This document shows positions 5,454 through 44,389 of a stretch of DNA of 64,000 nucleotides, in pieces. A program made the position numbers and the translations under genes. Within the stretch, counting starts at the first letter, position 1; each line of letters opens with the position of its first letter. Source of the DNA: Trichomonas vaginalis G3 (taxonomy: Eukaryota > Parabasalia > Trichomonadida > Trichomonadidae). The stretch covers positions 13,835,962 through 13,899,961 of the forward strand of contig NC_067208.1 of assembly GCF_026262505.1 (NCBI RefSeq), in the 5' to 3' direction. Below the pieces are notes generated by a model, which searched no databases, was not told where the DNA came from, and saw only the letters and a list, made by a program, of their open reading frames with translations.

Positions 5454-5460
5454 AAATAAC

Positions 5461-11069: not shown

Positions 11070-11087
11070 TTTACTTAGAATAAAAAG

Positions 11088-12994: not shown

Positions 12995-13026
12995 TTCATA
13001 TGAGTAAAAATATAGAATAGTTGGAT

Positions 13027-14010: not shown

Positions 14011-14031
14011 TTCTATATGTTTTCTTGAAAT

Positions 14032-17514: not shown

Positions 17515-17547
<33 letters not shown>
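17515..17547. repeat. 33-base T run at the Maverick/array junction
   Basis: A pure T run separates the Maverick end from segment A. In the right-hand copy of A the same boundary (AATGACTAAT) is preceded by segment R instead. It may be a biological junction or an assembly scar. Confidence 0.6.
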
Positions 17548-17550
<3 letters not shown>

Positions 17551-18114
17551 GACTAATATTGCCAAAGGAGAAGGGAAAATTTTATAAAATTTTATCATAT
17601 TAAGGTATAAAACTATTATTTCCTATATATTTATGAATCAAATAGTAAGATAATCACTCTTTGTTAGACTAAATTAAATGAAAAAAGTCTAAATTGTATG
17701 ATCGTCTAAACTCAGTATAACCTATACCAAAGCTTATTAATGGCTTATGCAAATATACAGCTGATGTTAGCTTAGTTTTTGACCAAAATACAAAAAAAAA
17801 TTATGAGTACAATATGATCAAAGTTTTATAAAAGCAGCCGAAAACAGCATTCAATTGGAATGGTATTATCAATGATAATCATTCAAGACACTTTTATCAA
17901 AAAATTTACATAAATCTTTTTCAAAACAGAGTATTTTTGCAAAAATTTCATCGAAAAGATAGCTTTGTCTAATAAAAATGATATGGTACGGAAAATCTAT
18001 TGAAAATAATCTGAGGAATTTGAAATTCATTAAAAAGTCTTGAAAAAAGTGAATGCATTCATGAATGTCCCATATCCATTTTATCCTGTTGTTTCATAAT
18101 TCCATATTGCCGAT
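17548..18114. repeat. Segment A, left copy
   Basis: This 0.57-kb AT-rich stretch is nearly identical to 58912-59482. It begins AATGACTAATATTGCCAAAG and ends CATATTGCCGATT just before segment R. No gene is visible in it. It bounds the tandem array on the left. Confidence 0.85.
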
Positions 18115-18385
18115 TATTCCAGTTTTTGGTGCTTTTCTATGATAACCAAATTGATTTGGTTATCATAGAAAAGAGACCATTATAATGCTTAAAATTAATT
18201 ATGTTTAGGGCCGGTTTATTGGAATAAGGAAGTTTATAATACGTGAACACTTGTTTCCTCATCGAAAAGTCATAACGCATAAAGTCGATGTTTCCTTAGT
18301 ACAAAAAGTGACATATGACGCTTAACTCTTTATTCCAGATAATGACCATATTTATGGGATTAAAAAGTTTAGGAAGCTTCTCCCC
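18115..18385. repeat. Segment R, first copy (271 bp) with 42-bp palindrome
   Basis: R runs from TATTCCAGTTTTTGG to GGAAGCTTCTCCCC and recurs nine times. Its palindrome (18132-18173) has arms CTTTTCTATGATAACCAAAT and the exact complement around a TG centre. The copies at the outer edges (18115, 58641, 59483) read TTCCAGTTTT, whereas the six internal ones read TTCCATTTTT. Confidence 0.85.
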
Positions 18386-18401
18386 AGTAATAATACATTA
18401 C

Positions 18402-18506
18402 CATAAAAAACTCCAAAAGAGTTTCATTTTTAAAATAGTTCGTAAAATATTACTAATACCTTTTGATGCATAAAAAACTCCAAAAGAGTTTCATTTTTAA
18501 AATAGT
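18402..18506. repeat. 38-bp direct repeat within each unit
   Basis: CATAAAAAACTCCAAAAGAG with its downstream TTTCATTTTTAAAATAGT occurs at 18402-18439 and 18469-18506. The pair is present in every unit; in later units the first copy has one extra A. Confidence 0.8.
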
Positions 18507-18863
18507 CGATATCAATTCAAAAAATTGAAACTATACCGTCAACTGTCAATTTTTCAATAGTTCGTTTTTTTAAATGTAATTGCTTTTTTTATATGCATTA
18601 ATCATTTGATAGTAGTGGGATCAAATTACATATCTTAAAAATGTATTCCGAGTGGAAAAAAAATCAATAGAATTGACCACAGATATCTGTTTAATCCAAA
18701 AATATTATTAGAATCATATTTAATAAAAATGCTATGCTTTTAGAAATAAACGGAAGAATAAACGCACTGTTTCAAACCGTCAAAATTGAATTTGTGTCAA
18801 ATATCTTGAATTTACAATTTTAGCTATTTAGATAATTAGAGAAGCATTTGATCAATTTTTGTG

Positions 18864-21142
18864 TTAAGGATACCCTTACGTGTCAGATTTTTTGCGCATA
18901 CAAAGAAGTCATGCTAGACATGAGCTATAAACCTGAAATTTTAGCAACATATTTAAAACTTTTTAAACTACAATACACTTTAATATTCAAGAACAAAAAT
19001 ATTCTTTTTAGAAATTACATAATTATTTTATGTGAAATCTATATAAAAACATATTTTGCGAGCGTAACTTTTTTCTTTATAAGCACCTTATATGACTGAT
19101 AAACTGTGAAGGCACATAATTGTTAATTCATAGAGTTGATATGTTTCCAAAATTGAGAGGAAATTTGAAAATTGAATACCCTTTCAATTCAATTTTCAAA
19201 AGATATCAGCTCCTTCAATAATTGAAGGACGATTTTGATCATTTGCTCTTAAAACAAGTATGCCATGGAGAAAAAAGTTACGCTCGCAAATCTGAAATAT
19301 AACTATCATATAAAAAAATTAAATTTCTAATTTTTTACTCTATAGATATTATTGGCCATTTGTGTAATGCATAAAAGTTTATGTCATATGCATACATTTG
19401 GAAGTATGGGAGACGAGGGAAATTACTTCTATGAGGGACTAGGATTTTTAAAAATTTCTCTATCGGACTCACCATTCAATTTCTCGAAAATTAAAAAAAA
19501 TCAATAATAGCTAAAATGTATTATGCATAACAAATTTTAATGTTACACGGTATTTTTTTGAACTTCATGACATGAATTTTCTTTATATTTTTTTTTTTTG
19601 GATTTTCTATGATTTATGCGATAGGCTGGAACAACATTGTAAGTGCAATGATATCATTTATAGAGAAATCTCTTCAGCATTCAGAACTCGCAACCACAAA
19701 AATATTCATTTGCTAAGTAAGTAAAGTTGATTAAGTTCGACACTTAGCTTTTATACGTAAAACTAAGTGTGTATTGTTATTTCTTGTTAAATTATTGAGA
19801 AAAAAATAAATTGTAAGAGAAACGATACTGATTATTGAAAGAATATTGAGGGTAGCTGCAGATTTCTTCATTAACATGCCGGAAATTTGTTAATCTTGGT
19901 TTTCTATCATAAAATCTGTCGAAGAATCTAAAAACGGAGATATGAAATAGAGATCATGTAAATCTAGAGTATCCTGTCAGAAAAAGAGACTAAGCATGTA
20001 ACCCTTTTTTGGTCATAAACACTTTTTACCACTTAGTCATACAGATGATCATTAAATTTAAACGAGCACTTTTTGTCAGAATTTATTCTTTTACAAAGAC
20101 AGAAGATTTTAGTATTATTTAATATTAGTGCTGTAGCAAAATTCAAAAAACGGTGAAAATTCAGTGAATTTGTGAATTCACATTTTTTTTCGACATTTTT
20201 CTTGATATATCCATGCACATTAAGAACACAGCTTTGATACGCTTAAAAAAGCATATTTCATATGAAATTGTTAAAGAAATAAACAATTTATATAAAAATT
20301 GCACTTATGGGCAGTTTAGATATATAATTTATATATAACATATATACAAATCCATAGACAAAGTGCAATAACTACAATGTTGTAGAAAATTACAGCAGAA
20401 ATACTGACTTTTTGAAGGATAATAAGAATTCTTCTAAATGTTGTATTTTTATAATTTGATTGATTTTTTTTTACTATTTCATTAATCTTTTATGAATAAT
20501 AATTATTTTTAATATATGTGCTATTAAAATTTCAAATTTTGACTAATATATCTAAGTTATCTGAACGAAACATTTAGAAAATATCATACTTACATTGAAA
20601 TAGCAAGTAGAGCATATTAATAGCAAGTTTCTTGGCTTTATATCTATCATCTATTGTTGTTTGATCAAACAAAATTCACTCTATTATATGGTGTCAATTA
20701 ATTAAAACAATTTTTAATAGTTATTTATTTAGTGCGAATAAGTGCAAACTCATAAATGAATAACTTAATAGTAGAAATGAATTATCTGATATAAATCTCA
20801 CATTTTGTCCATCAGAAATACTTTAATTGCATACGCATAACTATTAGTAATACGTCTGGAGTGTCAATTAATAACAATCCCACAACAAGTAAAATTCAGA
20901 TTTTTATTAAACTTATTTTTTCCTAAAAGTTTTCTCAAATTACTATATATACATATGTGGATAAAATAATAGTAATATTGTAAAAAATTAGATAATTTTT
21001 TTTATTTGAGAACCTCTCAAAAGTTCATTCAATTTATCAATTGTTTCAGTTTGATGTATATTCATTTCTGGAGCCTAAAACTTTAGCAATCATGACAATA
21101 TCATATTCTCTTTCTAACTACGCAATGTAAGGGTATCCTTAA
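18864..21142. mobile_element. TTAA-flanked inverted-repeat element inside the unit
   Basis: TTAA-GGATACCCTTAC at 18864-18879 is mirrored by GTAAGGGTATCC-TTAA at 21127-21142, enclosing 2.27 kb that ends 86 bases before the start of the fusion gene. TTAA target sites are typical of piggyBac-like elements, but the enclosed DNA has no long gene. It may be an old non-autonomous insertion or the true ends of the unit's own mobile element. Equivalent positions exist in all seven units. Apart from a nested inverted repeat, I see nothing coding; the short open frames inside are disrupted by indels in some units. Confidence 0.55.
19055..19290. repeat. Nested 236-bp inverted-repeat element
   Basis: TTTGCGAGCGTAACTTTTTT-CT (19055-19076) is perfectly complemented at 19269-19290. 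Inside are further stems, for example CCTTCAATAATTGAAGG. The form resembles a small MITE or a structured RNA; no target duplication is obvious. It is present in every unit. Confidence 0.6.
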
Positions 21143-21227
21143 ACAATTATTTTTCGAATTTCTGAGATATGAAAATTAATTCACTAACTTCTTAAAAACA
21201 TGAATTGAATGAAAACTCTTAGAAGAA

Positions 21228-23333
21228 ATGTTCATATCACTTTCATTAATGGAGTACAAGGATGATTCCGAGTTCTTGGATGATATCCAGAAGTCCAAAA
21301 CCCGATCCAAGGAAATCGTGAGAATGCAAATGCACTTAGCTTATCTTGATGAATCAGAGCCCGCAAGTGAAGATGAAAATCAAGCACCAGCTAATGCCGA
21401 AGAATTTAAAGTTGTCAGAAAGTTTAGCTTACAAAAATTCCTTGAGGCACACCCAATCTTAAATGTCAAAGACCTTTGTAACTTTTCTTTGGATCAACTC
21501 TTGTATTTAGTTGATGTTGTTCGCGAGCATGAGTTTTCATCCAGACGCGGTCGGAAAAACGGTTGTGATCCATTAGATGCGTTATTCCTAACATTAACTT
21601 ACTATTGCACTTATCTTCCATTGCAAAAAATGTCAGGAATTGTTAGTTTGAAACAGAGTTACCTCAGCAAAATCATTAACAAAACAACAAACAGGATGTT
21701 CCCAATTTTCATTGCTGAATTCATTCCAAAACAATATTCTCCCTGTGACAAGGAGTTCGATAACTTTCCAACATGTGTTGCTGCAGTTGATAGCTCTACT
21801 ATTCCTTTTACCGTTCCTCTTGATCTTGCTGAGCGTAAAAGTTCATGGGATGCTAAAAACCATTGCAATGGTATGAAGGTTCAAGTTCTTGTTAATCCTT
21901 TAGGACAGGTAATTCACATGAATACAAGTTTTTTAGCTTCAGTTCACGATAAGAAAGTATTTGATTTATCAGGAGCTTCAGATTTTTTACATGTCCAACG
22001 TGGAGTTGAATCTGTTGCATTAGGACTTCTTGCAGATAGAGGTTACATCGGTATTCAGAAATACCATCCAACAGCCGTCATTATGCAAAGAGGTGATGAC
22101 GAAGAAGTTACAAAACGCAATAATGCGATTGCACATGATCGCCAAATTGTCGAACGCCGCTTTGCACGCGATAAAAGTAATTGGAGTGTCTTGGCAATAG
22201 GATATCGTGGTGAAAAAGGCAATCTTCCACTTATTGTTCAAGGATTGTTTGCTTTAGATAACTATCACATCGATTCCACACCTCTCAGTGAGAAGGATAA
22301 CTGCGATTTTCCTTGCACTCCAAAAGATGAAAAAGAAGCTGCAGCAACACCAGAACCAAATGGTTCAGGAAGCCCAATGCCAAAGCCAAGATGTGTTCCA
22401 AAAGATCTTTATCTCCAAACTCCAGAAACTCCAATGAAGATTCCATCTCCACTAGCTGGATATGAAAAGATTGATAAGATACTTATTAAAAGAACACAAA
22501 ATGCAATCTACAACATCGAAACAAAAATGTCAATTCCAGGATTACATAATGAGGGAGCTACCTGCCATGTCAATGCCGTTTTGCAAGTTTTGTTCTACGT
22601 AAATACTTTCAGAAAAGATGTAATGGAGCATTTGGGAGATGTCGAATATACGCCAGTGAAAGCACTTGCCGAAATTTATGATCAGATGTTGCACTACCGC
22701 CACAAGGAATACACAATTTCATGCTCACAATTCATCACAACACTCGGCAAGCAATACTTCCAGCAGCAAGATGCCGATGACACATTTCAAAAGATTGTAC
22801 ATGATGTTACGGAATCAGCAAACAAACCAGATATTGCCGTTACATTCCAATATCAAACTGAGACTCCTGATGAAAGCTTCTATTCGGTTTCGCTTCACAT
22901 TCCTCTTGGTGCAGCAGGTATTGATCAAGGAATTAAACAAATGTGCACAGATGATTCTCATATCAATGAAATCTCAACATTCCTCTGGGTCGACGTTCAG
23001 AGGAATTGGTCTGATCCAAATGTCTTCTTTGACAAATTTGAGATCAAGAAGAACTACAAAACTCAACTCAGTGATGGAACGTATGTATTTAAGATACATT
23101 CCATTATTGCTTATCATCAAGGTCATTTCGTTGCCTTCGTCAACAAAGGAAGAGTTTGGTTCATGCTCGACGATGAAATTACTTACATTGTTCCTGATGG
23201 TTTGATCAAAGGTCTTCAAGGTGGAGATGTTGGCAGCGATTTGTGGTCATATCTTGGTGGTGTCAAATGGCTTGCAAAATGTGTCATCTATCGCAAACAC
23301 AAGTTCTATGGAGCTGGTGATGATGATGATTGA
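21228..23333 (+). CDS. DDE transposase fused to USP7-like deubiquitinase, unit 1
   Basis: The 701-residue protein has an N-terminal charged region, a helix-turn-helix of the transposase-associated type (about residues 85-155, with LDALFLTLTYYCTYLPLQKM), and a DDE_4-type nuclease core: VAAVDSSTIPF (D188), the SVHDKKVF motif (H240-D241), LLADRGYIG (D270) and IVERRFARDKSNW (E309). A Pro-rich linker (360-410) leads to a ubiquitin-specific protease: Cys box PGLHNEGATCHVNAVLQ (C446), QQDADDTF (Q-D box), and His box HSIIAYHQGHFVAFV (H633) with WFMLDDE (D648/D649). The order and words such as GATC and LF-VNTFRK resemble USP7; the ubiquitin-holding fingers are short. All catalytic residues are present. 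The likely start is Met8 (21249), next to initiator motifs. The fusion suggests a transposase that edits ubiquitin on itself or on chromatin; that is inference. Confidence 0.9.
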   Translation: MFISLSLMEYKDDSEFLDDIQKSKTRSKEIVRMQMHLAYLDESEPASEDENQAPANAEEFKVVRKFSLQKFLEAHPILNVKDLCNFSLDQLLYLVDVVREHEFSSRRGRKNGCDPLDALFLTLTYYCTYLPLQKMSGIVSLKQSYLSKIINKTTNRMFPIFIAEFIPKQYSPCDKEFDNFPTCVAAVDSSTIPFTVPLDLAERKSSWDAKNHCNGMKVQVLVNPLGQVIHMNTSFLASVHDKKVFDLSGASDFLHVQRGVESVALGLLADRGYIGIQKYHPTAVIMQRGDDEEVTKRNNAIAHDRQIVERRFARDKSNWSVLAIGYRGEKGNLPLIVQGLFALDNYHIDSTPLSEKDNCDFPCTPKDEKEAAATPEPNGSGSPMPKPRCVPKDLYLQTPETPMKIPSPLAGYEKIDKILIKRTQNAIYNIETKMSIPGLHNEGATCHVNAVLQVLFYVNTFRKDVMEHLGDVEYTPVKALAEIYDQMLHYRHKEYTISCSQFITTLGKQYFQQQDADDTFQKIVHDVTESANKPDIAVTFQYQTETPDESFYSVSLHIPLGAAGIDQGIKQMCTDDSHINEISTFLWVDVQRNWSDPNVFFDKFEIKKNYKTQLSDGTYVFKIHSIIAYHQGHFVAFVNKGRVWFMLDDEITYIVPDGLIKGLQGGDVGSDLWSYLGGVKWLAKCVIYRKHKFYGAGDDDD
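21237..21247 (+). promoter_or_regulatory. Initiator motifs before the fusion gene
   Basis: TCACT (21237) and TCATT (21243) fit the trichomonad initiator TCA-Y-W and lie 4-10 bases before the second in-frame ATG at 21249. This favours translation from that ATG (MEYKDDSEF) over the one at 21228. The same sequence precedes the gene in all units. Confidence 0.5.
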
Positions 23334-26300
23334 AAACAGTTTAATTTTTTTTAATCTTATTATAAGGGATAATTCTCTAAATATATGATTTTTTCTTAAG
23401 TTAGTGAATATTTTTCTTGTGTGCTTTTACTTATTTAAGTATTTAGTATTATTACTTAAAAATTTTGAACATTTATTTTATAATATTGAGATTTAAAATA
23501 AACTATTGCTCGATCGTATCTTTATTTGCTCTTTTAATAAAAAATCTAACTTACTATTGATTAGATATTGATTTAAAAAAATAATATAATAGCATAATAA
23601 AATTTCTTTATTTCCCCGTACAAAGATATAGCCGTAACAAGACATTAACGTTTGGAAAGTAAATTTGAAAAAAAGTATTATATTATAAAAGAAGTTACAA
23701 ATTTTTAGAATATTTTTGTAAAATAAGAGCAAAAAGTAGAATGCAAACTCTTCGGGTACTAAAACCTGCCATTAAATTGAGATAAATAATAGATTTTGTA
23801 AAATTTTGTTGTAATTCTTGTATCAGTCTTGCCTTGAGTATGAGTTTGAGTCTACCCTTGTTTCCATATTGCCTATTCCTGTTTTAACGCGGCTATTCCT
23901 ATTCCATTTTTTGGTGCTTTTCTATGATAACCAAATTGATTTGGTTATCATAGAAAAGAGACCATTATAATGCTTAAAATTAATTATGTTTAGGGCCGGT
24001 TTATTGGAATAAGGAAGTTTATAATACGTGAACACTTGTTTCCTCATCGAAAAGTCATAACGCATAAAGTCGATGTTTCCTTAGTACAAAAAGTGACATA
24101 TGACGCTTAACTCTTTATTCCAGATAATGACCATATTTATGGGATTAAAAAGTTTAGGAAGCTTCTCCCCAGTAATAATACATTACCATAAAAAAACTCC
24201 AAAAGAGTTTCATTTTTAAAATAGTTCGTAAAATATTACTAATACCTTTTGATGCATAAAAAACTCCAAAAGAGTTTCATTTTTAAAATAGTCGATATCA
24301 ATTCAAAAAATTGAAACTATACCGTCAACTGTCAATTTTTCAATAGTTCGTTTTTTTAAATGTAATTGCTTTTTTTATATGCATTAATCATTTGATAGTA
24401 GTGGGATCAAATTACATATCTTAAAAATGTATTCCGAGTGGAAAAAAAATCAATAGAATTGACCACAGATATCTGTTTAATCCAAAAATATTATTAGAAT
24501 CATATTTAATAAAAATGCTATGCTTTTAGAAATAAACGGAAGAATAAACGCACTGTTTCAAACCGTCAAAATTGAATTTGTGTCAAATATCTTGAATTTA
24601 CAATTTTAGCTATTTAGATAATTAGAGAAGCATTTGATCAATTTTTGTGTTAAGGATACCCTTACGTGTCAGATTTTTTGCGCATACAAAGAAGTCATGC
24701 TAGACATGAGCTATAAACCTGAAATTTTAGCAACATATTTAAAACTTTTTAAACTACAATACACTTTAATATTCAAGAACAAAAATATTCTTTTTAGAAA
24801 TTACATAATTATTTTATGTGAAATCTATATAAAAACATATTTTGCGAGCGTAACTTTTTTCTTTATAAGCACCTTATATGACTGATAAACTGTGAAGGCA
24901 CATAATTGTTAATTCATAGAGTTGATATGTTTCCAAAATTGAGAGGAAATTTGAAAATTGAATACCCTTTCAATTCAATTTTCAAAAGATATCAGCTCCT
25001 TCAATAATTGAAGGACGATTTTGATCATTTGCTCTTAAAACAAGTATGCCATGGAGAAAAAAGTTACGCTCGCAAATCTGAAATATAACTATCATATAAA
25101 AAAATTAAATTTCTAATTTTTTACTCTATAGATATTATTGGCCATTTGTGTAATGCATAAAAGTTTATGTCATATGCATACATTTGGAAGTATGGGAGAC
25201 GAGGGAAATTACTTCTATGAGGGACTAGGATTTTTAAAAATTTCTCTATCGGACTCACCATTCAATTTCTCGAAAATTAAAAAAAATCAATAATAGCTAA
25301 AATGTATTATGCATAACAAATTTTAATGTTACACGGTATTTTTTTGAACTTCATGACATGAATTTTCTTTATATTATTTTTTTTTTTGGATTTTCTATGA
25401 TTTATGCGATAGGCTGGAACAACATTGTAAGTGCAATGATATCATTTATAGAGAAATCTAAAACTTCAGCATTCAGAACTCGCAACCACAAAAATATTCA
25501 TTTGCTAAGTAAGTAAAGTTGATTAAGTTCGACACTTAGCTTTTATACGTAAAACTAAGTGTGTATTGTTATTTCTTGTTAAATTATTGAGAAAAAAATA
25601 AATTGTAAGAGAAACGATACTGATTATTGAAAGAATATTGAGGGTAGCTGCAGATTTCTTCATTAACATGCCGGAAATTTGTTAATCTTGGTTTTCTATC
25701 ATAAAATCTGTCGAAGAATCTAAAAACGGAGATATGAAATAGAGATCATGTAAATCTAGAGTATCCTGTCAGAAAAAGAGACTAAGCATGTAACCCTTTT
25801 TTGGTCATAAACACTTTTTACCACTTAGTCATACAGATGATCATTAAATTTAAACGAGCACTTTTTGTCAGAATTTATTCTTTTACAAAGACAGAAGATT
25901 TTAGTATTATTTAATATTAGTGCTGTAGCAAAATTCAAAAAACGGTGAAAATTCAGTGAATTTGTGAATTCACATTTTTTTTCGACATTTTTCTTGATAT
26001 ATCCATGCACATTAAGAACACAGCTTTGATACGCTTAAAAAAGCATATTTCATATGAAATTGTTAAAGAAATAAACAATTTATATAAAAATTGCACTTAT
26101 GGGCAGTTTAGATATATAATTTATATATAACATATATACAAATCCATAGACAAAGTGCAATAACTACAATGTTGTAGAAAATTACAGCAGAAATACTGAC
26201 TTTTTGAAGGATAATAAGAATTCTTCTAAATGTTGTATTTTTATAATTTGATTGATTTTTTTTTACTATTTCATTAATCTTTTATGAATAATAATATTTT

Positions 26301-27018
26301 TAATATATGTGCTATTAAAATTTCAAATTTTGACTAATATATCTAAGTTATCTGAACGAAACATTTAGAAAATATCATACTTACATTGAAATAGCAAGTA
26401 GAGCATATTAATAGCAAGTTTCTTGGCTTTATATCTATCATCTATTGTTGTTTGATCAAACAAAATTCACTCTATTATATGGTGTCAATTAATTAAAACA
26501 ATTTTTAATAGTTATTTATTTAGTGCGAATAAGTGCAAACTCATAAATGAATAACTTAATAGTAGAAATGAATTATCTGATATAAATCTCACATTTTGTC
26601 CATCAGAAATACTTTAATTGCATACGCATAACTATTAGTAATACGTCTGGAGTGTCAATTAATAACAATCCCACAACAAGTAAAATTCAGATTTTTATTA
26701 AACTTATTTTTTCCTAAAAGTTTTCTCAAATTACTATATATACATATGTGGATAAAATAATAGTAATATTGTAAAAAATTAGATAATTTTTTTTATTTGA
26801 GAACCTCTCAAAAGTTCATTCAATTTATCAATTGTTTCAGTTTGATGTATATTCATTTCTGGAGCCTAAAACTTTAGCAATCATGACAATATCATATTCT
26901 CTTTCTAACTACGCAATGTAAGGGTATCCTTAAACAATTATTTTTCGAATTTCTGAGATATGAAAATTAATTCACTAACTTCTTAAAAACATGAATTGAA
27001 TGAAAACTCTTAGAAGAA

Positions 27019-29126
27019 ATGTTCATATCACTTTCATTAATGGAGTACAAGGATGATTCCGAGTTCTTGGATGATATCCAGAAGTCCAAAACCCGATCCA
27101 AGGAAATCGTGAGAATGCAAATGCACTTAGCTTATCTTGATGAATCAGAGCCCGCAAGTGAAGATGAAAATCAAGCACCAGCTAATGCCGAAGAATTTAA
27201 AGTTGTCAGAAAGTTTAGCTTACAAAAATTCCTTGAGGCACACCCAATCTTAAATGTCAAAGACCTTTGTAACTTTTCTTTGGATCAACTCTTGTATTTA
27301 GTTGATGTTGTTCGCGAGCATGAGTTTTCATCCAGACGCGGTCGGAAAAACGGTTGTGATCCATTAGATGCGTTATTCCTAACATTAACTTACTATTGCA
27401 CTTATCTTCCATTGCAAAAAATGTCAGGAATTGTTAGTTTGAAACAGAGTTACCTCAGCAAAATCATTAACAAAACAACAAACAGGATGTTCCCAATTTT
27501 CATTGCTGAATTCATTCCAAAACAATATTCTCCCTGTGACAAGGAGTTCGATAACTTTCCAACATGTGTTGCTGCAGTTGATAGCTCTACTATTCCTTTT
27601 ACCGTTCCTCTTGATCTTGCTGAGCGTAAAAGTTCATGGGATGCTAAAAACCATTGCAATGGTATGAAGGTTCAAGTTCTTGTTAATCCTTTAGGACAGG
27701 TAATTCACATGAATACAAGTTTTTTAGCTTCAGTTCACGATAAGAAAGTATTTGATTTATCAGGAGCTTCAGATTTTTTACATGTCCAACGTGGAGTTGA
27801 ATCTGTTGCATTAGGACTTCTTGCAGATAGAGGTTACATCGGTATTCAGAAATACCATCCAACAGCCGTCATTATGCAAAGAGGTGATGACGAAGAAGTT
27901 ACAAAACGCAATAATGCGATTGCACATGATCGCCAAATTGTCGAACGCCGCTTTGCACGCGATAAAAGTAATTGGAGTGTCTTGGCAATAGGATATCGTG
28001 GTGAAAAAGGCAATCTTCCACTTATTGTTCAAGGATTGTTTGCTTTAGATAACTATCACATCGATTCCACACCTCTCAGTGAGAAGGATAACTGCGATTT
28101 TCCTTGCACTCCAAAAGATGAAAAAGAAGCTGCAGCAACACCAGAACCAAATGGTTCAGGAAGCCCAATGCCAAAGCCAAGATGTGTTCCAAAAGATCTT
28201 TATCTCCAAACTCCAGAAACTCCAATGAAGATTCCATCTCCACTAGCTGGATATGAAAAGATTGATAAGATACTTATTAAAAGAACACAAAATGCAATCT
28301 ACAACATCGAAACAAAAATGTCAATTCCAGGATTACATAATGAGGGAGCTACCTGCCATGTCAATGCCGTTTTGCAAGTTTGTTCTACGTAAATACTTTC
28401 AGAAAAGATGTAATGGAGCATTTGGGAGATGTCGAATATACGCCAGTGAAAGCACTTGCCGAAATTTATGATCAGATGTTGCACTACCGCCACAAGGAAT
28501 ACACAATTTCATGCTCACAATTCATCACAACACTCGGCAAGCAATACTTCCAGCAGCAAGATGCCGATGACACATTTCAAAAGATTGTACATGATGTTAC
28601 GGAATCAGCAAACAAACCAGATATTGCCGTTACATTCCAATATCAAACTGAGACTCCTGATGAAAGCTTCTATTCGGTTTCGCTTCACATTCCTCTTGGT
28701 GCAGCAGCAGGTATTGATCAAGGAATTAAACAAATGTGCACAGATGATTCTCATATCAATGAAATCTCAACATTCCTCTGGGTCGACGTTCAGAGGAATT
28801 GGTCTGATCCAAATGTCTTCTTTGACAAATTTGAGATCAAGAAGAACTACAAAACTCAACTCAGTGATGGAACGTATGTATTTAAGATACATTCCATTAT
28901 TGCTTATCATCAAGGTCATTTCGTTGCCTTCGTCAACAAAGGAAGAGTTTGGTTCATGCTCGACGATGAAATTACTTACATTGTTCCTGATGGTTTGATC
29001 AAAGGTCTTCAAGGTGGAGATGTTGGCAGCGATTTGTGGTCATATCTTGGTGGTGTCAAATGGCTTGCAAAATGTGTCATCTATCGCAAACACAAGTTCT
29101 ATGGAGCTGGTGATGATGATGATTGA
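27019..29126 (+). pseudogene. Transposase-deubiquitinase, unit 2, frameshifted in the Cys box
   Basis: One T is missing in the run near 28,378 (GTTTGTTC instead of GTTTTGTTC), so the first frame ends at 28392 after LQVCST. The transposase half and C446 are kept, but most of the protease is lost. The rest stays open in another frame (28380-29126) and carries a three-base in-frame insertion (an extra Ala after GAA). A truncated transposase without deubiquitinase could be made. Homopolymer sequencing error is possible because the break is in a T run. Confidence 0.85.
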
Positions 29127-32100
29127 AAACAGTTTAATTTTTTTTAATCTTATTATAAGGGATAATTCTCTAAATATATGATTTTTTCTTAAGTTAGTGA
29201 ATATTTTTCTTGTGTGCTTTTACTTATTTAAGTATTTAGTATTATTACTTAAAAATTTTGAACATTTATTTTATAATATTGAGATTTAAAATAAACTATT
29301 GCTCGATCGTATCTTTATTTGCTCTTTTAATAAAAAATCTAACTTACTATTGATTAGATATTGATTTAAAAAAATAATATAATAGCATAATAAAATTTCT
29401 TTATTTCCCCGTACAAAGATATAGCCGTAACAAGACATTAACGTTTGGAAAGTAAATTTGAAAAAAAGTATTATATTATAAAAGAAGTTACAAATTTTTA
29501 GAATATTTTTGTAAAATAAGAGCAAAAAGTAGAATGCAAACTCTTCGGGTACTAAAACCTGCCATTAAATTGAGATAAATAATAGATTTTGTAAAATTTT
29601 GTTGTAATTCTTGTATCAGTCTTGCCTTGAGTATGAGTTTGAGTCTACCCTTGTTTCCATATTGCCTATTCCTGTTTTAACGCGGCTATTCCTATTCCAT
29701 TTTTTGGTGCTTTTCTATGATAACCAAATTGATTTGGTTATCATAGAAAAGAGACCATTATAATGCTTAAAATTAATTATGTTTAGGGCCGGTTTATTGG
29801 AATAAGGAAGTTTATAATACGTGAACACTTGTTTCCTCATCGAAAAGTCATAACGCATAAAGTCGATGTTTCCTTAGTACAAAAAGTGACATATGACGCT
29901 TAACTCTTTATTCCAGATAATGACCATATTTATGGATTAAAAAGTTTAGGAAGCTTCTCCCCAGTAATAATACATTACCATAAAAAAACTCCAAAAGAGT
30001 TTCATTTTTAAAATAGTTCGTAAAATATTACTAATACCTTTTGATGCATAAAAAACTCCAAAAGAGTTTCATTTTTAAAATAGTCGATATCAATTCAAAA
30101 AATTGAAACTATACCGTCAACTGTCAATTTTTCAATAGTTCGTTTTTTTAAATGTAATTGCTTTTTTTATATGCATTAATCATTTGATAGTAGTGGGATC
30201 AAATTACATATCTTAAAAATGTATTCCGAGTGGAAAAAAAATCAATAGAATTGACCACAGATATCTGTTTAATCCAAAAATATTATTAGAATCATATTTA
30301 ATAAAAATGCTATGCTTTTAGAAATAAACGGAAGAATAAACGCACTGTTTCAAACCGTCAAAATTGAATTTGTGTCAAATATCTTGAATTTACAATTTTA
30401 GCTATTTAGATAATTAGAGAAGCATTTGATCAATTTTTGTGTTAAGGATACCCTTACGTGTCAGATTTTTTGCGCATACAAAGAAGTCATGCTAGACATG
30501 AGCTATAAACCTGAAATTTTAGCAACATATTTAAAACTTTTTAAAACAATACACTTTAATATTCAAGAACAAAAATATTCTTTTTAGAAATTACATAATT
30601 ATTTTATGTGAAATCTATATAAAAACATATTTTGCGAGCGTAACTTTTTTCTTTATAAGCACCTTATATGACTGATAAACTGTGAAGGCACATAATTGTT
30701 AATTCATAGAGTTGATATGTTTCCAAAATTGAGAGGAAATTTGAAAATTGAATACCCTTTCAATTCAATTTTCAAAAGATATCAGCTCCTTCAATAATTG
30801 AAGGACGATTTTGATCATTTGCTCTTAAAACAAGTATGCCATGGAGAAAAAAGTTACGCTCGCAAATCTGAAATATAACTATCATATAAAAAAATTAAAT
30901 TTCTAATTTTTTACTCTATAGATATTATTGGCCATTTGTGTAATGCATAAAAGTTTATGTCATATGCATACATTTGGAAGTATGGGAGACGAGGGAAATT
31001 ACTTCTATGAGGGACTAGGATTTTTAAAAATTTCTCTATCGGACTCACCATTCAATTTCTCGAAAATTAAAAAAAATCAATAATAGCTAAAATGTATTAT
31101 GCATAACAAATTTTAATGTTACACGGTATTTTTTTGAACTTCATGACATGAATTTTCTTTATATTATTTTTTTTTTGGATTTTCTATGATTTATGCGATA
31201 GGCTGGAACAACATTGTAAGTGCAATGATATCATTTATAGAGAAATCTAAAACTTCAGCATTCAGAACTCGCAACCACAAAAATATTCATTTGCTAAGTA
31301 AGTAAAGTTGATTAAGTTCGACACTTAGCTTTTATACGTAAAACTAAGTGTGTATTGTTATTTCTTGTTAAATTATTGAGAAAAAAATAAATTGTAAGAG
31401 AAACGATACTGATTATTGAAAGAATATTGAGGGTAGCTGCAGATTTCTTCATTAACATGCCGGAAATTTGTTAATCTTGGTTTTCTATCATAAAATCTGT
31501 CGAAGAATCTAAAAACGGAGATATGAAATAGAGATCATGTAAATCTAGAGTATCCTGTCAGAAAAAGAGACTAAGCATGTAACCCTTTTTTGGTCATAAA
31601 CACTTTTTACCACTTAGTCATACAGATGATCATTAAATTTAAACGAGCACTTTTTGTCAGAATTTATTCTTTTACAAAGACAGAAGATTTTAGTATTATT
31701 TAATATTAGTGCTGTAGCAAAATTCAAAAAACGGTGAAAATTCAGTGAATTTGTGAATTCACATTTTTTTTCGACATTTTTCTTGATATATCCATGCACA
31801 TTAAGAACACAGCTTTGATACGCTTAAAAAAGCATATTTCATATGAAATTGTTAAAGAAATAAACAATTTATATAAAAATTGCACTTATGGGCAGTTTAG
31901 ATATATAATTTATATATAACATATATACAAATCCATAGACAAAGTGCAATAACTACAATGTTGTAGAAAATTACAGCAGAAATACTGACTTTTTGAAGGA
32001 TAATAAGAATTCTTCTAAATGTTGTATTTTTATAATTTGATTGATTTTTTTTTACTATTTCATTAATCTTTTATGAATAATAATTATTTTTAATATATGT

Positions 32101-32808
32101 GCTATTAAAATTTCAAATTTTGACTAATATATCTAAGTTATCTGAACGAAACATTTAGAAAATATCATACTTACATTGAAATAGCAAGTAGAGCATATTA
32201 ATAGCAAGTTTCTTGGCTTTATATCTATCATCTATTGTTGTTTGATCAAACAAAATTCACTCTATTATATGGTGTCAATTAATTAAAACAATTTTTAATA
32301 GTTATTTATTTAGTGCGAATAAGTGCAAACTCATAAATGAATAACTTAATAGTAGAAATGAATTATCTGATATAAATCTCACATTTTGTCCATCAGAAAT
32401 ACTTTAATTGCATACGCATAACTATTAGTAATACGTCTGGAGTGTCAATTAATAACAATCCCACAACAAGTAAAATTCAGATTTTTATTAAACTTATTTT
32501 TTCCTAAAAGTTTTCTCAAATTACTATATATACATATGTGGATAAAATAATAGTAATATTGTAAAAAATTAGATAATTTTTTTTATTTGAGAACCTCTCA
32601 AAAGTTCATTCAATTTATCAATTGTTTCAGTTTGATGTATATTCATTTCTGGAGCCTAAAACTTTAGCAATCATGACAATATCATATTCTCTTTCTAACT
32701 ACGCAATGTAAGGGTATCCTTAAACAATTATTTTTCGAATTTCTGAGATATGAAAATTAATTCACTAACTTCTTAAAAACATGAATTGAATGAAAACTCT
32801 TAGAAGAA

Positions 32809-34914
32809 ATGTTCATATCACTTTCATTAATGGAGTACAAGGATGATTCCGAGTTCTTGGATGATATCCAGAAGTCCAAAACCCGATCCAAGGAAATCGT
32901 GAGAATGCAAATGCACTTAGCTTATCTTGATGAATCAGAGCCCGCAAGTGAAGATGAAAATCAAGCACCAGCTAATGCCGAAGAATTTAAAGTTGTCAGA
33001 AAGTTTAGCTTACAAAAATTCCTTGAGGCACACCCAATCTTAAATGTCAAAGACCTTTGTAACTTTTCTTTGGATCAACTCTTGTATTTAGTTGATGTTG
33101 TTCGCGAGCATGAGTTTTCATCCAGACGCGGTCGGAAAAACGGTTGTGATCCATTAGATGCGTTATTCCTAACATTAACTTACTATTGCACTTATCTTCC
33201 ATTGCAAAAAATGTCAGGAATTGTTAGTTTGAAACAGAGTTACCTCAGCAAAATCATTAACAAAACAACAAACAGGATGTTCCCAATTTTCATTGCTGAA
33301 TTCATTCCAAAACAATATTCTCCCTGTGACAAGGAGTTCGATAACTTTCCAACATGTGTTGCTGCAGTTGATAGCTCTACTATTCCTTTTACCGTTCCTC
33401 TTGATCTTGCTGAGCGTAAAAGTTCATGGGATGCTAAAAACCATTGCAATGGTATGAAGGTTCAAGTTCTTGTTAATCCTTTAGGACAGGTAATTCACAT
33501 GAATACAAGTTTTTTAGCTTCAGTTCACGATAAGAAAGTATTTGATTTATCAGGAGCTTCAGATTTTTTACATGTCCAACGTGGAGTTGAATCTGTTGCA
33601 TTAGGACTTCTTGCAGATAGAGGTTACATCGGTATTCAGAAATACCATCCAACAGCCGTCATTATGCAAAGAGGTGATGACGAAGAAGTTACAAAACGCA
33701 ATAATGCGATTGCACATGATCGCCAAATTGTCGAACGCCGCTTTGCACGCGATAAAAGTAATTGGAGTGTCTTGGCAATAGGATATCGTGGTGAAAAAGG
33801 CAATCTTCCACTTATTGTTCAAGGATTGTTTGCTTTAGATAACTATCACATCGATTCCACACCTCTCAGTGAGAAGGATAACTGCGATTTTCCTTGCACT
33901 CCAAAAGATGAAAAAGAAGCTGCAGCAACACCAGAACCAAATGGTTCAGGAAGCCCAATGCCAAAGCCAAGATGTGTTCCAAAAGATCTTTATCTCCAAA
34001 CTCCAGAAACTCCAATGAAGATTCCATCTCCACTAGCTGGATATGAAAAGATTGATAAGATACTTATTAAAAGAACACAAAATGCAATCTACAACATCGA
34101 AACAAAAATGTCAATTCCAGGATTACATAATGAGGGAGCTACCTGCCATGTCAATGCCGTTTTGCAAGTTTTGTTCTACGTAAATACTTTCAGAAAAGAT
34201 GTAATGGAGCATTTGGGAGATGTCGAATATACGCCAGTGAAAGCACTTGCCGAAATTTATGATCAGATGTTGCACTACCGCCACAAGGAATACACAATTT
34301 CATGCTCACAATTCATCACAACACTCGGCAAGCAATACTTCCAGCAGCAAGATGCCGATGACACATTTCAAAAGATTGTACATGATGTTACGGAATCAGC
34401 AAACAAACCAGATATTGCCGTTACATTCCAATATCAAACTGAGACTCCTGATGAAAGCTTCTATTCGGTTTCGCTTCACATTCCTCTTGGTGCAGCAGGT
34501 ATTGATCAAGGAATTAAACAAATGTGCACAGATGATTCTCATATCAATGAAATCTCAACATTCCTCTGGGTCGACGTTCAGAGGAATTGGTCTGATCCAA
34601 ATGTCTTCTTTGACAAATTTGAGATCAAGAAGAACTACAAAACTCAACTCAGTGATGGAACGTATGTATTTAAGATACATTCCATTATTGCTTATCATCA
34701 AGGTCATTTCGTTGCCTTCGTCAACAAAGGAAGAGTTTGGTTCATGCTCGACGATGAAATTACTTACATTGTTCCTGATGGTTTGATCAAAGGTCTTCAA
34801 GGTGGAGATGTTGGCAGCGATTTGTGGTCATATCTTGGTGGTGTCAAATGGCTTGCAAAATGTGTCATCTATCGCAAACACAAGTTCTATGGAGCTGGTG
34901 ATGATGATGATTGA
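32809..34914 (+). CDS. Transposase-deubiquitinase fusion, unit 3
   Basis: Open over all 701 codons, with the same translation as unit 1 as far as I can read. The DDE residues and the protease C/H/D set are intact. Upstream non-coding DNA of this unit has small deletions (for example near 29,935 and 30,543) not seen in the others, while the gene itself is unchanged. Confidence 0.9.
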   Translation: MFISLSLMEYKDDSEFLDDIQKSKTRSKEIVRMQMHLAYLDESEPASEDENQAPANAEEFKVVRKFSLQKFLEAHPILNVKDLCNFSLDQLLYLVDVVREHEFSSRRGRKNGCDPLDALFLTLTYYCTYLPLQKMSGIVSLKQSYLSKIINKTTNRMFPIFIAEFIPKQYSPCDKEFDNFPTCVAAVDSSTIPFTVPLDLAERKSSWDAKNHCNGMKVQVLVNPLGQVIHMNTSFLASVHDKKVFDLSGASDFLHVQRGVESVALGLLADRGYIGIQKYHPTAVIMQRGDDEEVTKRNNAIAHDRQIVERRFARDKSNWSVLAIGYRGEKGNLPLIVQGLFALDNYHIDSTPLSEKDNCDFPCTPKDEKEAAATPEPNGSGSPMPKPRCVPKDLYLQTPETPMKIPSPLAGYEKIDKILIKRTQNAIYNIETKMSIPGLHNEGATCHVNAVLQVLFYVNTFRKDVMEHLGDVEYTPVKALAEIYDQMLHYRHKEYTISCSQFITTLGKQYFQQQDADDTFQKIVHDVTESANKPDIAVTFQYQTETPDESFYSVSLHIPLGAAGIDQGIKQMCTDDSHINEISTFLWVDVQRNWSDPNVFFDKFEIKKNYKTQLSDGTYVFKIHSIIAYHQGHFVAFVNKGRVWFMLDDEITYIVPDGLIKGLQGGDVGSDLWSYLGGVKWLAKCVIYRKHKFYGAGDDDD

Positions 34915-37900
34915 AAACAGTTTAATTTTTTTTAATCTTATTATAAGGGATAATTCTCTAAATATATGATTTTTTCTTAAGTTAGTGAATATTTTTCTTG
35001 TGTGCTTTTACTTATTTAAGTATTTAGTATTATTACTTAAAAATTTTGAACATTTATTTTATAATATTGAGATTTAAAATAAACTATTGCTCGATCGTAT
35101 CTTTATTTGCTCTTTTAATAAAAAATCTAACTTACTATTGATTAGATATTGATTTAAAAAAATAATATAATAGCATAATAAAATTTCTTTATTTCCCCGT
35201 ACAAAGATATAGCCGTAACAAGACATTAACGTTTGGAAAGTAAATTTGAAAAAAAGTATTATATTATAAAAGAAGTTACAAATTTTTAGAATATTTTTGT
35301 AAAATAAGAGCAAAAAGTAGAATGCAAACTCTTCGGGTACTAAAACCTGCCATTAAATTGAGATAAATAATAGATTTTGTAAAATTTTGTTGTAATTCTT
35401 GTATCAGTCTTGCCTTGAGTATGAGTTTGAGTCTACCCTTGTTTCCATATTGCCTATTCCTGTTTTAACGCGGCTATTCCTATTCCATTTTTTGGTGCTT
35501 TTCTATGATAACCAAATTGATTTGGTTATCATAGAAAAGAGACCATTATAATGCTTAAAATTAATTATGTTTAGGGCCGGTTTATTGGAATAAGGAAGTT
35601 TATAATACGTGAACACTTGTTTCCTCATCGAAAAGTCATAACGCATAAAGTCGATGTTTCCTTAGTACAAAAAGTGACATATGACGCTTAACTCTTTATT
35701 CCAGATAATGACCATATTTATGGGATTAAAAAGTTTAGGAAGCTTCTCCCCAGTAATAATACATTACCATAAAAAAACTCCAAAAGAGTTTCATTTTTAA
35801 AATAGTTCGTAAAATATTACTAATACCTTTTGATGCATAAAAAACTCCAAAAGAGTTTCATTTTTAAAATAGTCGATATCAATTCAAAAAATTGAAACTA
35901 TACCGTCAACTGTCAATTTTTCAATAGTTCGTTTTTTTAAATGTAATTGCTTTTTTTATATGCATTAATCATTTGATAGTAGTGGGATCAAATTACATAT
36001 CTTAAAAATGTATTCCGAGTGGAAAAAAAATCAATAGAATTGACCACAGATATCTGTTTAATCCAAAAATATTATTAGAATCATATTTAATAAAAATGCT
36101 ATGCTTTTAGAAATAAACGGAAGAATAAACGCACTGTTTCAAACCGTCAAAATTGAATTTGTGTCAAATATCTTGAATTTACAATTTTAGCTATTTAGAT
36201 AATTAGAGAAGCATTTGATCAATTTTTGTGTTAAGGATACCCTTACGTGTCAGATTTTTTGCGCATACAAAGAAGTCATGCTAGACATGAGCTATAAACC
36301 TGAAATTTTAGCAACATATTTAAAACTTTTTAAACTACAATACACTTTAATATTCAAGAACAAAAATATTCTTTTTAGAAATTACATAATTATTTTATGT
36401 GAAATCTATATAAAAACATATTTTGCGAGCGTAACTTTTTTCTTTATAAGCACCTTATATGACTGATAAACTGTGAAGGCACATAATTGTTAATTCATAG
36501 AGTTGATATGTTTCCAAAATTGAGAGGAAATTTGAAAATTGAATACCCTTTCAATTCAATTTTCAAAAGATATCAGCTCCTTCAATAATTGAAGGACGAT
36601 TTTGATCATTTGCTCTTAAAACAAGTATGCCATGGAGAAAAAAGTTACGCTCGCAAATCTGAAATATAACTATCATATAAAAAAATTAAATTTCTAATTT
36701 TTTACTCTATAGATATTATTGGCCATTTGTGTAATGCATAAAAGTTTATGTCATATGCATACATTTGGAAGTATGGGAGACGAGGGAAATTACTTCTATG
36801 AGGGACTAGGATTTTTAAAAATTTCTCTATCGGACTCACCATTCAATTTCTCGAAAATTAAAAAAAATCAATAATAGCTAAAATGTATTATGCATAACAA
36901 ATTTTAATGTTACACGGTATTTTTTTGAACTTCATGACATGAATTTTCTTTATATTATTTTTTTTTTTGGATTTTCTATGATTTATGCGATAGGCTGGAA
37001 CAACATTGTAAGTGCAATGATATCATTTATAGAGAAATCTAAAACTTCAGCATTCAGAACTCGCAACCACAAAAATATTCATTTGCTAAGTAAGTAAAGT
37101 TGATTAAGTTCGACACTTAGCTTTTATACGTAAAACTAAGTGTGTATTGTTATTTCTTGTTAAATTATTGAGAAAAAAATAAATTGTAAGAGAAACGATA
37201 CTGATTATTGAAAGAATATTGAGGGTAGCTGCAGATTTCTTCATTAACATGCCGGAAATTTGTTAATCTTGGTTTTCTATCATAAAATCTGTCGAAGAAT
37301 CTAAAAACGGAGATATGAAATAGAGATCATGTAAATCTAGAGTATCCTGTCAGAAAAGAGACTAAGCATGTAACCCTTTTTTGGTCATAAACACTTTTTA
37401 CCACTTAGTCATACAGATGATCATTAAATTTAAACGAGCACTTTTTCAGAATTTATTCTTTTACAAAGACAGAAGATTTTAGTATTATTTAATATTAGTG
37501 CTGTAGCAAAATTCAAAAAACGGTGAAAATTCAGTGAATTTGTGAATTCACATTTTTTTTCGACATTTTTCTTGATATATCCATGCACATTAAGAACACA
37601 GCTTTGATACGCTTAAAAAAGCATATTTCATATGAAATTGTTAAAGAAATAAACAATTTATATAAAATTGCACTTATGGGCAGTTTAGATATATAATTTA
37701 TATATAACATATATACAAATCCATAGACAAAGTGCAATAACTACAATGTTGTAGAAAATTACAGCAGAAATACTGACTTTTTGAAGGATAATAAGAATTC
37801 TTCTAAATGTTGTATTTTTATAATTTGATTGATTTTTTTTTACTATTTCATTAATCTTTTATGAATAATAATTATTTTTAATATATGTGCTATTAAAATT

Positions 37901-38595
37901 TCAAATTTTGACTAATATATCTAAGTTATCTGAACGAAACATTTAGAAAATATCATACTTACATTGAAATAGCAAGTAGAGCATATTAATAGCAAGTTTC
38001 TTGGCTTTATATCTATCATCTATTGTTGTTTGATCAAACAAAATTCACTCTATTATATGGTGTCAATTAATTAAAACAATTTTTAATAGTTATTTATTTA
38101 GTGCGAATAAGTGCAAACTCATAAATGAATAACTTAATAGTAGAAATGAATTATCTGATATAAATCTCACATTTTGTCCATCAGAAATACTTTAATTGCA
38201 TACGCATAACTATTAGTAATACGTCTGGAGTGTCAATTAATAACAATCCCACAACAAGTAAAATTCAGATTTTTATTAAACTTATTTTTTCCTAAAAGTT
38301 TTCTCAAATTACTATATATACATATGTGGATAAAATAATAGTAATATTGTAAAAAATTAGATAATTTTTTTATTTGAGAACCTCTCAAAAGTTCATTCAA
38401 TTTATCAATTGTTTCAGTTTGATGTATATTCATTTCTGGAGCCTAAAACTTTAGCAATCATGACAATATCATATTCTCTTTCTAACTACGCAATGTAAGG
38501 GTATCCTTAAACAATTATTTTTCGAATTTCTGAGATATGAAAATTAATTCACTAACTTCTTAAAAACATGAATTGAATGAAAACTCTTAGAAGAA

Positions 38596-40701
38596 ATGTT
38601 CATATCACTTTCATTAATGGAGTACAAGGATGATTCCGAGTTCTTGGATGATATCCAGAAGTCCAAAACCCGATCCAAGGAAATCGTGAGAATGCAAATG
38701 CACTTAGCTTATCTTGATGAATCAGAGCCCGCAAGTGAAGATGAAAATCAAGCACCAGCTAATGCCGAAGAATTTAAAGTTGTCAGAAAGTTTAGCTTAC
38801 AAAAATTCCTTGAGGCACACCCAATCTTAAATGTCAAAGACCTTTGTAACTTTTCTTTGGATCAACTCTTGTATTTAGTTGATGTTGTTCGCGAGCATGA
38901 GTTTTCATCCAGACGCGGTCGGAAAAACGGTTGTGATCCATTAGATGCGTTATTCCTAACATTAACTTACTATTGCACTTATCTTCCATTGCAAAAAATG
39001 TCAGGAATTGTTAGTTTGAAACAGAGTTACCTCAGCAAAATCATTAACAAAACAACAAACAGGATGTTCCCAATTTTCATTGCTGAATTCATTCCAAAAC
39101 AATATTCTCCCTGTGACAAGGAGTTCGATAACTTTCCAACATGTGTTGCTGCAGTTGATAGCTCTACTATTCCTTTTACCGTTCCTCTTGATCTTGCTGA
39201 GCGTAAAAGTTCATGGGATGCTAAAAACCATTGCAATGGTATGAAGGTTCAAGTTCTTGTTAATCCTTTAGGACAGGTAATTCACATGAATACAAGTTTT
39301 TTAGCTTCAGTTCACGATAAGAAAGTATTTGATTTATCAGGAGCTTCAGATTTTTTACATGTCCAACGTGGAGTTGAATCTGTTGCATTAGGACTTCTTG
39401 CAGATAGAGGTTACATCGGTATTCAGAAATACCATCCAACAGCCGTCATTATGCAAAGAGGTGATGACGAAGAAGTTACAAAACGCAATAATGCGATTGC
39501 ACATGATCGCCAAATTGTCGAACGCCGCTTTGCACGCGATAAAAGTAATTGGAGTGTCTTGGCAATAGGATATCGTGGTGAAAAAGGCAATCTTCCACTT
39601 ATTGTTCAAGGATTGTTTGCTTTAGATAACTATCACATCGATTCCACACCTCTCAGTGAGAAGGATAACTGCGATTTTCCTTGCACTCCAAAAGATGAAA
39701 AAGAAGCTGCAGCAACACCAGAACCAAATGGTTCAGGAAGCCCAATGCCAAAGCCAAGATGTGTTCCAAAAGATCTTTATCTCCAAACTCCAGAAACTCC
39801 AATGAAGATTCCATCTCCACTAGCTGGATATGAAAAGATTGATAAGATACTTATTAAAAGAACACAAAATGCAATCTACAACATCGAAACAAAAATGTCA
39901 ATTCCAGGATTACATAATGAGGGAGCTACCTGCCATGTCAATGCCGTTTTGCAAGTTTTGTTCTACGTAAATACTTTCAGAAAAGATGTAATGGAGCATT
40001 TGGGAGATGTCGAATATACGCCAGTGAAAGCACTTGCCGAAATTTATGATCAGATGTTGCACTACCGCCACAAGGAATACACAATTTCATGCTCACAATT
40101 CATCACAACACTCGGCAAGCAATACTTCCAGCAGCAAGATGCCGATGACACATTTCAAAAGATTGTACATGATGTTACGGAATCAGCAAACAAACCAGAT
40201 ATTGCCGTTACATTCCAATATCAAACTGAGACTCCTGATGAAAGCTTCTATTCGGTTTCGCTTCACATTCCTCTTGGTGCAGCAGGTATTGATCAAGGAA
40301 TTAAACAAATGTGCACAGATGATTCTCATATCAATGAAATCTCAACATTCCTCTGGGTCGACGTTCAGAGGAATTGGTCTGATCCAAATGTCTTCTTTGA
40401 CAAATTTGAGATCAAGAAGAACTACAAAACTCAACTCAGTGATGGAACGTATGTATTTAAGATACATTCCATTATTGCTTATCATCAAGGTCATTTCGTT
40501 GCTTTCGTCAACAAAGGAAGAGTTTGGTTCATGCTCGACGATGAAATTACTTACATTGTTCCTGATAGTTTGATCAAAGGTCTTCAAGGTGGAGATGTTG
40601 GCAGCGATTTGTGGTCATATCTTGGTGGTGTCAAATGGCTTGCAAAATGTGTCATCTATCGCAAACACAAGTTCTATGGAGCTGGTGATGATGATGATTG
40701 A
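38596..40701 (+). CDS. Transposase-deubiquitinase fusion, unit 4
   Basis: Open over 701 codons. One missense change, G658S (VPDSLIKG), and a silent C-to-T near 40,503 distinguish it; both lie near the protease C-terminus, after the catalytic Asp. The upstream DNA has unit-specific small deletions (near 37,356, 37,447 and 37,665). Confidence 0.9.
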   Translation: MFISLSLMEYKDDSEFLDDIQKSKTRSKEIVRMQMHLAYLDESEPASEDENQAPANAEEFKVVRKFSLQKFLEAHPILNVKDLCNFSLDQLLYLVDVVREHEFSSRRGRKNGCDPLDALFLTLTYYCTYLPLQKMSGIVSLKQSYLSKIINKTTNRMFPIFIAEFIPKQYSPCDKEFDNFPTCVAAVDSSTIPFTVPLDLAERKSSWDAKNHCNGMKVQVLVNPLGQVIHMNTSFLASVHDKKVFDLSGASDFLHVQRGVESVALGLLADRGYIGIQKYHPTAVIMQRGDDEEVTKRNNAIAHDRQIVERRFARDKSNWSVLAIGYRGEKGNLPLIVQGLFALDNYHIDSTPLSEKDNCDFPCTPKDEKEAAATPEPNGSGSPMPKPRCVPKDLYLQTPETPMKIPSPLAGYEKIDKILIKRTQNAIYNIETKMSIPGLHNEGATCHVNAVLQVLFYVNTFRKDVMEHLGDVEYTPVKALAEIYDQMLHYRHKEYTISCSQFITTLGKQYFQQQDADDTFQKIVHDVTESANKPDIAVTFQYQTETPDESFYSVSLHIPLGAAGIDQGIKQMCTDDSHINEISTFLWVDVQRNWSDPNVFFDKFEIKKNYKTQLSDGTYVFKIHSIIAYHQGHFVAFVNKGRVWFMLDDEITYIVPDSLIKGLQGGDVGSDLWSYLGGVKWLAKCVIYRKHKFYGAGDDDD

Positions 40702-43700: not shown

Positions 43701-44389
43701 CTAATATATCTAAGTTATCTGAACGAAACATTTAGAAAATATCATACTTACATTGAAATAGCAAGTAGAGCATATTAATAGCAAGTTTCTTGGCTTTATA
43801 TCTATCATCTATTGTTGTTTGATTGATCAAACAAAATTCACTCTATTATATGGTGTCAATTAATTAAAACAATTTTTAATAGTTATTTATTTAGTGCGAA
43901 TAAGTGCAAACTCATAAATGAATAACTTAATAGTAGAAATGAATTATCTGATATAAATCTCACATTTTGTCCATCAGAAATACTTTAATTGCATACGCAT
44001 AACTATTAGTAATACGTCTGGAGTGTCAATTAATAACAATCCCACAACAAGTAAAATTCAGATTTTTATTAAACTTATTTTTTCCTAAAAGTTTTCTCAA
44101 ATTACTATATATACATATGTGGATAAAATAATAGTAATATTGTAAAAAATTAGATAATTTTTTTTATTTGAGAACCTCTCAAAAGTTCATTCAATTTATC
44201 AATTGTTTCAGTTTGATGTATATTCATTTCTGGAGCCTAAAACTTTAGCAATCATGACAATATCATATTCTCTTTCTAACTACGCAATGTAAGGGTATCC
44301 TTAAACAATTATTTTTCGAATTTCTGAGATATGAAAATTAATTCACTAACTTCTTAAAAACATGAATTGAATGAAAACTCTTAGAAGAA

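Follow-up and report, generated by a model that had tools for sequence, protein, structure and literature searches.

A PHIS-type DNA transposon of Trichomonas vaginalis whose single gene encodes a transposase joined to a ubiquitin-specific protease

In a 64,000-nucleotide stretch of the Trichomonas vaginalis G3 genome (contig NC_067208.1, here C6, positions 13835962-13899961; hereafter the window), a single open reading frame (ORF) of 701 codons at 21228-23333 on the forward strand encodes both a DDE-type transposase and a ubiquitin-specific protease (USP). The gene and its domains are as follows.

21249..23333, forward strand: transposase-USP fusion gene, probable product of 694 aa; frame open from 21228 (701 codons)
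21786..22262, forward strand: DDE_Tnp_4 transposase core (Pfam, residues 187-345; D188, D270, E309)
22539..23177, forward strand: USP domain (Pfam, PDB sequence search and fold; residues 438-650; N441, C446, Q514-D515, H633, D648)

A first-pass annotation, made from the DNA letters, had placed both domains in one frame and called for profile searches. These returned DDE_Tnp_4 over residues 187-345 (E 6.6e-30; 104.3 bits vs a curated cut-off of 24.8) and UCH over residues 438-650 (E 1.1e-12; 48.5 bits vs 23.9), both above the Pfam cut-offs, and the residues that it had named (D188, H240, D241, D270, E309, C446, H633, D648 and D649) all lie where it had put them. The USP identity that it had proposed is likewise sound, since Pfam, the PDB sequence search and the fold comparison agree: Cys and His boxes are present within a USP fold, as in peptidase family C19, and the predicted structure of the USP half is that of a USP. 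Its description as USP7-like holds in that USP7 is among the closest folds, but USP18 (the top row), USP46 and USP1 are tied with it within about 1 Z unit, and the top scorers in the profile search against PDB sequences are USP12 and USP46. As annotated, the frame is open over 701 codons; however, judging from sequence comparison, the true start is probably the second ATG, at 21249, giving the 694-aa product, because the database protein P0001 (titled 'ZGC:162945 family [Trichomonas vaginalis G3]'), the same protein as the window product, begins there. An N-terminus like MxYKD, or close to it, is found again in several relatives, and TCATT sits immediately 5' of this ATG, which we take to resemble the trichomonad initiator motif. 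Nor is the gene a lone one, a reading that was rejected because the frame is one of the seven units of a tandem array described below.

The fusion protein was searched against the genome (180,853,573 bases in 86 contigs), with the best 64 of 155 candidates scored and 68 matches listed. At least 16 matches are free of stops over residues 1-701, six in the window and at least 10 elsewhere on C1, C2, C4, C5 and C6, while two copies on C3 carry stops; across several chromosomes, copies of this family (family 1) are almost the same in sequence. At about 40% identity, a second family contributes at least 10 full-length stop-free rows among the matches listed. Both ends are present in six of the 11 family-1 loci taken for end analysis (L031, L034, L035, L036, L037 and L040), the remaining five being without at least one terminus, and in all six the 3-bp flanks are equal, AAT or ATT. 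L034, L035 and L037 measure 4523-4526 bp; in the remaining three, insertions or an additional end fragment add to the length. The terminal inverted repeats (TIRs) of L034 and L037 are 276 bp long (99.6%), and the only uninterrupted frames of more than 60 aa in these two copies are the 701-codon fusion frame and an overlapping one of 175 codons. A complete family-2 element (L042; 4334 bp), with inverted ends of about 298 bp and AAT/AAT flanks, has the same layout. Moreover, the flanks of L035 joined with a single ATT match at least 40 places (216 candidates), all through the joint, 35 of them in full over 200 bases and five over 197; L035 is thus inserted into a repeated sequence that is common in uninterrupted form. 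The proposal that the fusion lies within a mobile element is supported by these dispersed near-identical copies with their inverted ends and target duplications, and by the empty sites known for one insertion: the fusion gene belongs to a recently mobile one-gene transposon of the PHIS superfamily.

As to its class, the element has the DDE_Tnp_4-type transposase with D, D and E of the PHIS superfamily, together with TIRs and short target duplications (3 bp in six of six family-1 copies and in the one family-2 copy, plus the empty site). PIF/Harbinger elements typically carry a second ORF bearing a Myb/SANT domain; no such ORF was found among the uninterrupted frames of more than 60 aa in L034 and L037. 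Target duplications are ANT in the Pangu group, TWA in Harbinger and AT in ISL2EU (PMC4482050). The duplications seen here fit ANT, although only AAT and ATT occur, never a middle G or C, so that ANT and AWT are indistinguishable. PIF/Harbinger proper was rejected because AAT/ATT is not TWA, and ISL2EU because the 3-bp flanks, AAT/AAT or ATT/ATT, are not a 2-bp AT (A|AT|T). We are nearly certain that the element is a trichomonad DNA transposon of PHIS type (IS5/Harbinger-like), one that looks autonomous and has the fusion as its only gene. The published list of T. vaginalis transposable element families includes Harbinger.1,.1N1 and.2 (PMC7845603).

Three protein searches for relatives gave 3, 18 and 3 matches. 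The fusion is found again in P0002 (38% over 92%), P0003 (34%), the fragments P0005, P0010 and P0015, P0006 and P0022; P0001 and P0002 carry the organism name T. vaginalis. In the 18-match search, precomputed Pfam labels give both domains to four proteins (P0005, P0006, P0010 and P0015) and P0011 reaches into the Cys box, whereas P0004, P0008, P0014 and P0021 extend beyond the DDE core without a USP and the other rows end early. Transposases without USP are represented by P0014, P0021 and a third DDE_Tnp_4 family of this genome (L045:485-1834, a 449-aa frame with no UCH match there). In an 11-row tree of the DDE domain, a 100/99 branch has all five USP-labelled rows on the same side, accompanied by three unlabelled rows, and L045 forms a very long branch; the fusion may therefore have arisen once. 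Among pattern matches, none of 34 in viral_contigs and none of 66 in genome_contigs was confirmed as a relative, in searches that may have excluded records from the genome of the window itself.

D188, D270 and E309 are invariant in all relatives covering them. Among the five lineages with coverage of the USP domain, N441, C446, Q514, D515 and H633 never vary, in a domain with just 25 invariant columns out of 200; the chance for this catalytic set is 2e-5, uncorrected for relatedness and with P0006 left out. Position 648 is D or N among relatives, and USPs allow either at the equivalent position. We consider the USP half quite likely to be catalytically competent.

The first-pass annotation had known of no transposon of this design, yet the design was already in print in 2010: Bao, Kapitonov and Jurka name T. 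vaginalis XP_001314237.1 as a protein with transposase_11 and peptidase C19 domains and credit Gladyshev and Arkhipova 2009 for it (PMC2836005). Like the window product, it is one protein in which a C19 (USP) peptidase comes after the DDE transposase, and it shares its organism name with P0001 and P0002; unlike the present account, that single sentence, from which the likeness is drawn by description, gives no ends, target duplications, families or array. No published account of the element ends, target duplications or tandem array was found in the open-access literature; the element ends, the insertion footprint and the seven-copy array are described here. Pangu elements share the DDE_Tnp_4-type transposase and 3-bp ANT duplications, but the C-terminal USP sets the window element apart from them; by term counts, the PMC4482050 text is without ubiquitin, protease or Trichomonas. 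Ubiquitin/SUMO proteases have been acquired by unrelated transposons, namely Ginger, Mutator and Helitrons (PMC2836005, PMC9741609). Ginger1 likewise joins a C-terminal ubiquitin/SUMO protease to a cut-and-paste transposase, but it combines a Gypsy-integrase-like transposase with OTU or Ulp1 rather than DDE_Tnp_4 with USP (PMC2836005). Helitrons with VTD or OTU also carry a deubiquitinase on a transposon protein, which however is a rolling-circle RepHel protein with a different protease class; activity of a Helitron VTD has been demonstrated, and protection of transposition proteins from the proteasome proposed (PMC9741609). By analogy, the OTU/Ulp1 of Ginger1 and the OTU/VTD of Helitrons suggest that ubiquitin removal may be a shared benefit in transposition.

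The transposase function is well supported by the catalytic residues, inverted ends, duplications and empty sites. We propose that the transposase half would bind and cut the element ends, while the USP half, as an active deubiquitinase tethered to it, would strip ubiquitin from the transposase or close neighbours (histones, repair factors) at donor and target sites, letting the transposition complex persist until the reaction is complete. A PHIS-type transposon with a tethered deubiquitinase protecting its transposase complex is in our judgment the likely explanation overall, whereas protection of the transposase or its complex as the main role of the USP, which draws on the analogies above, is put forward tentatively. 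Several observations weigh against this proposal. The USP half diverges much faster, identity among the window product, P0002 and P0003 being about 23-30% in this half vs 44-53% in the DDE half. In P0006, R replaces Q514, and N stands in place of H633 at a point where the alignment is doubtful. No purifying selection was seen among 17 recent copies, where non-synonymous/synonymous counts are 2/1 for DDE, 5/0 for the linker (one shared site) and 7/4 for USP, five of the seven USP changes coming from one stop-bearing copy. The structure prediction, also suggested by the first-pass annotation, gave a USP fold for the USP half but a poor full-length model (pLDDT 32.6). For L034, looking for an empty site returned its own two flanks and nothing else, and no activity, transcript or protein data on the fusion gene were found.

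Alternatively, the USP may target not the transposase but chromatin or repair factors at the cut site, such as ubiquitinated H2A/H2B, PCNA or FANCD2-like proteins. USP46 and USP1 are among the closest folds, along with USP18 and USP7, and a repair role has been suggested for transposase-linked Ulp1/OTU domains by Bao et al. (PMC2836005); tied fold rows, however, carry no substrate information, and we hold this alternative to be somewhat unlikely. We regard as more doubtful still the view that the USP is a passenger, either a captured host domain retained only for its fold, which might serve dimerisation or nuclear localisation, or an enzyme cleaving another ubiquitin-like modifier. The fast divergence of the USP half and the lack of visible purifying selection would suit a passenger, as would the top fold row, USP18 being a de-ISGylase, but the invariance of the catalytic set among so few invariant columns and the retention of D or N at 648 argue against it.

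The proposal of a transposon with a tethered deubiquitinase concerns the complete element, of which the window holds modified copies arranged as follows.

18123..58912, forward strand: head-to-tail array of seven units of 5785-5795 bp, each with the fusion frame (31-mer scan)
23895..24170, forward strand: right terminal repeat of the element, 276 bp, ending in CTTCTCCCC; recurs in direct orientation at array unit junctions
18132..18173, no strand: 42-bp palindrome inside the terminal repeat, with 20-nt arms, 100% complementary
17549..18385, reverse strand: left-end fragment (inner part B plus terminal repeat) in opposite orientation at the left array border
58912..59753, reverse strand: second left-end fragment (B plus terminal repeat) at the right array border
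18868..21138, no strand: foreign 2,271-bp insert with GGATACCCTTAC ends, TTAA-flanked, nested in the first unit and repeated in others

The fusion frame recurs at 27019, 32809, 38596, 44390, 50181 and 55969; it is fully open in six of the seven units and split in the one starting at 27019. Each unit equals the element plus the insert minus the left end, with the right terminus CTTCTCCCC joined to AGTAATAAT... within the left part. The segment 18868-21138 is regarded as foreign because 18867 runs straight into 21139 in dispersed copies such as L034 and L037. No inverted pair of at least 200 bases was found within 16000-64000; therefore, no array unit has both inverted ends of a complete element, and the units, which keep the right end and have lost the left, are probably immobile by themselves. 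The array may have begun with a one-ended, aberrant insertion (AGT fits ANT) and then grown by unequal exchange; residue 420 is I in most window copies but V in dispersed ones, a pattern that local amplification would produce.

Pairwise, the units differ by 0-4 substitutions and 3-13 gap columns over about 5.79 kb. Such near-identity, mainly broken by short indels, and a seven-fold count resting on assembled sequence could point to an assembly artefact, in which the transposon and fusion are real and the copy number is not; against this, individual units have a small number of substitutions and indels of their own, and a 20.3-Mb contig contains the whole repeat, making an artefact improbable. 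It is very improbable that the array represents domesticated host genes and not the remains of a transposon, since the closeness of the units and their six open frames, which might suggest it, are equally explained by recent tandem amplification, while the same gene lies in complete mobile elements outside the array, and the array itself has pieces of transposon ends on either border and a foreign insert nested within it.

Two further readings of the array were rejected. The 42-bp palindrome is not the abutting ends of a circular element, as dispersed copies have termini GGGGAGAAGC...GCTTCTCCCC with the palindrome internal to the 276-bp repeat; nor are the border blocks of B plus terminal repeat (R) the long terminal direct repeats of an LTR-like structure, as dispersed copies identify these blocks as inverted left-end fragments. 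With Rfam, one array unit matched miRNA families alone, all of them at the palindrome and well short of their gathering scores, and the tRNA scan gave no tRNA. An R-B-R arrangement (right terminus, then inverted left-end fragment) is seen at the right array border (58912-59753) and in the dispersed L040 (7957-8797), where matching AAT flanks lie outside it; this end variant may itself be mobile. The 2,271-bp insert has no long ORF, its GGATACCCTTAC ends are inverted, and one piece of it occurs nearly unchanged at 40 or more genomic places; it also contains a perfect 22-bp inverted repeat (19055-19076 / 19269-19290, spacing 192 nt), and its TTAA flanks are reminiscent of Kolobok or piggyBac elements.

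Around the array lie the following features, given without strand unless noted.

585-15638: Maverick/Polinton-like gene block, left of the array
2510-3172: KilA-N, in this block
3554-4540: DUF3839, in this block
7233-7931, reverse strand: Pox_A32-type ATPase, in this block
14032-15638, reverse strand: DUF4106, two frames, in this block
16482-17356: minisatellite-like arrays of TTTGTAAAGAC units, between this block and the transposon array
60073-61218: 381-aa frame without Pfam match, right of the array
62503-63654, reverse strand: class-3 lipase gene, right of the array

A run of 33 T (17516-17548), preceded by ...GGAAGCCCCACTACC, adjoins the truncated B block. The same T-run sequence with GGAAGCCCCACTACC also adjoins left ends of truncated form in the transposon copies L033 and L044; in L039 and L041 it lies inverted, at the right. 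Its appearance is that of an inserted element with a poly(A) tail, which would be odd for a species described with class 2 elements (PMC7845603).

In a genome search with UCH, for which the best 149 of 169 candidates were scored, 37 of the 149 matches lie within family-1 (22) or family-2 (15) ORFs, the overlap being judged by hand; deubiquitinase gene counts for this genome thus include transposon copies. Because its ends are defined, its intact, near-identical copies are many and it comes in two families, this one-gene case makes the role of the protease testable by one cysteine change. With a confidence a little short of even, we suggest that a clade of trichomonad cut-and-paste transposons has an active USP as a fixed covalent part of its transposase, kept across relatives about half identical in the transposase, and that it supplies about one quarter of the genome's USP-like matches, so that part of the apparent deubiquitinase expansion of T. 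vaginalis may be transposon cargo.
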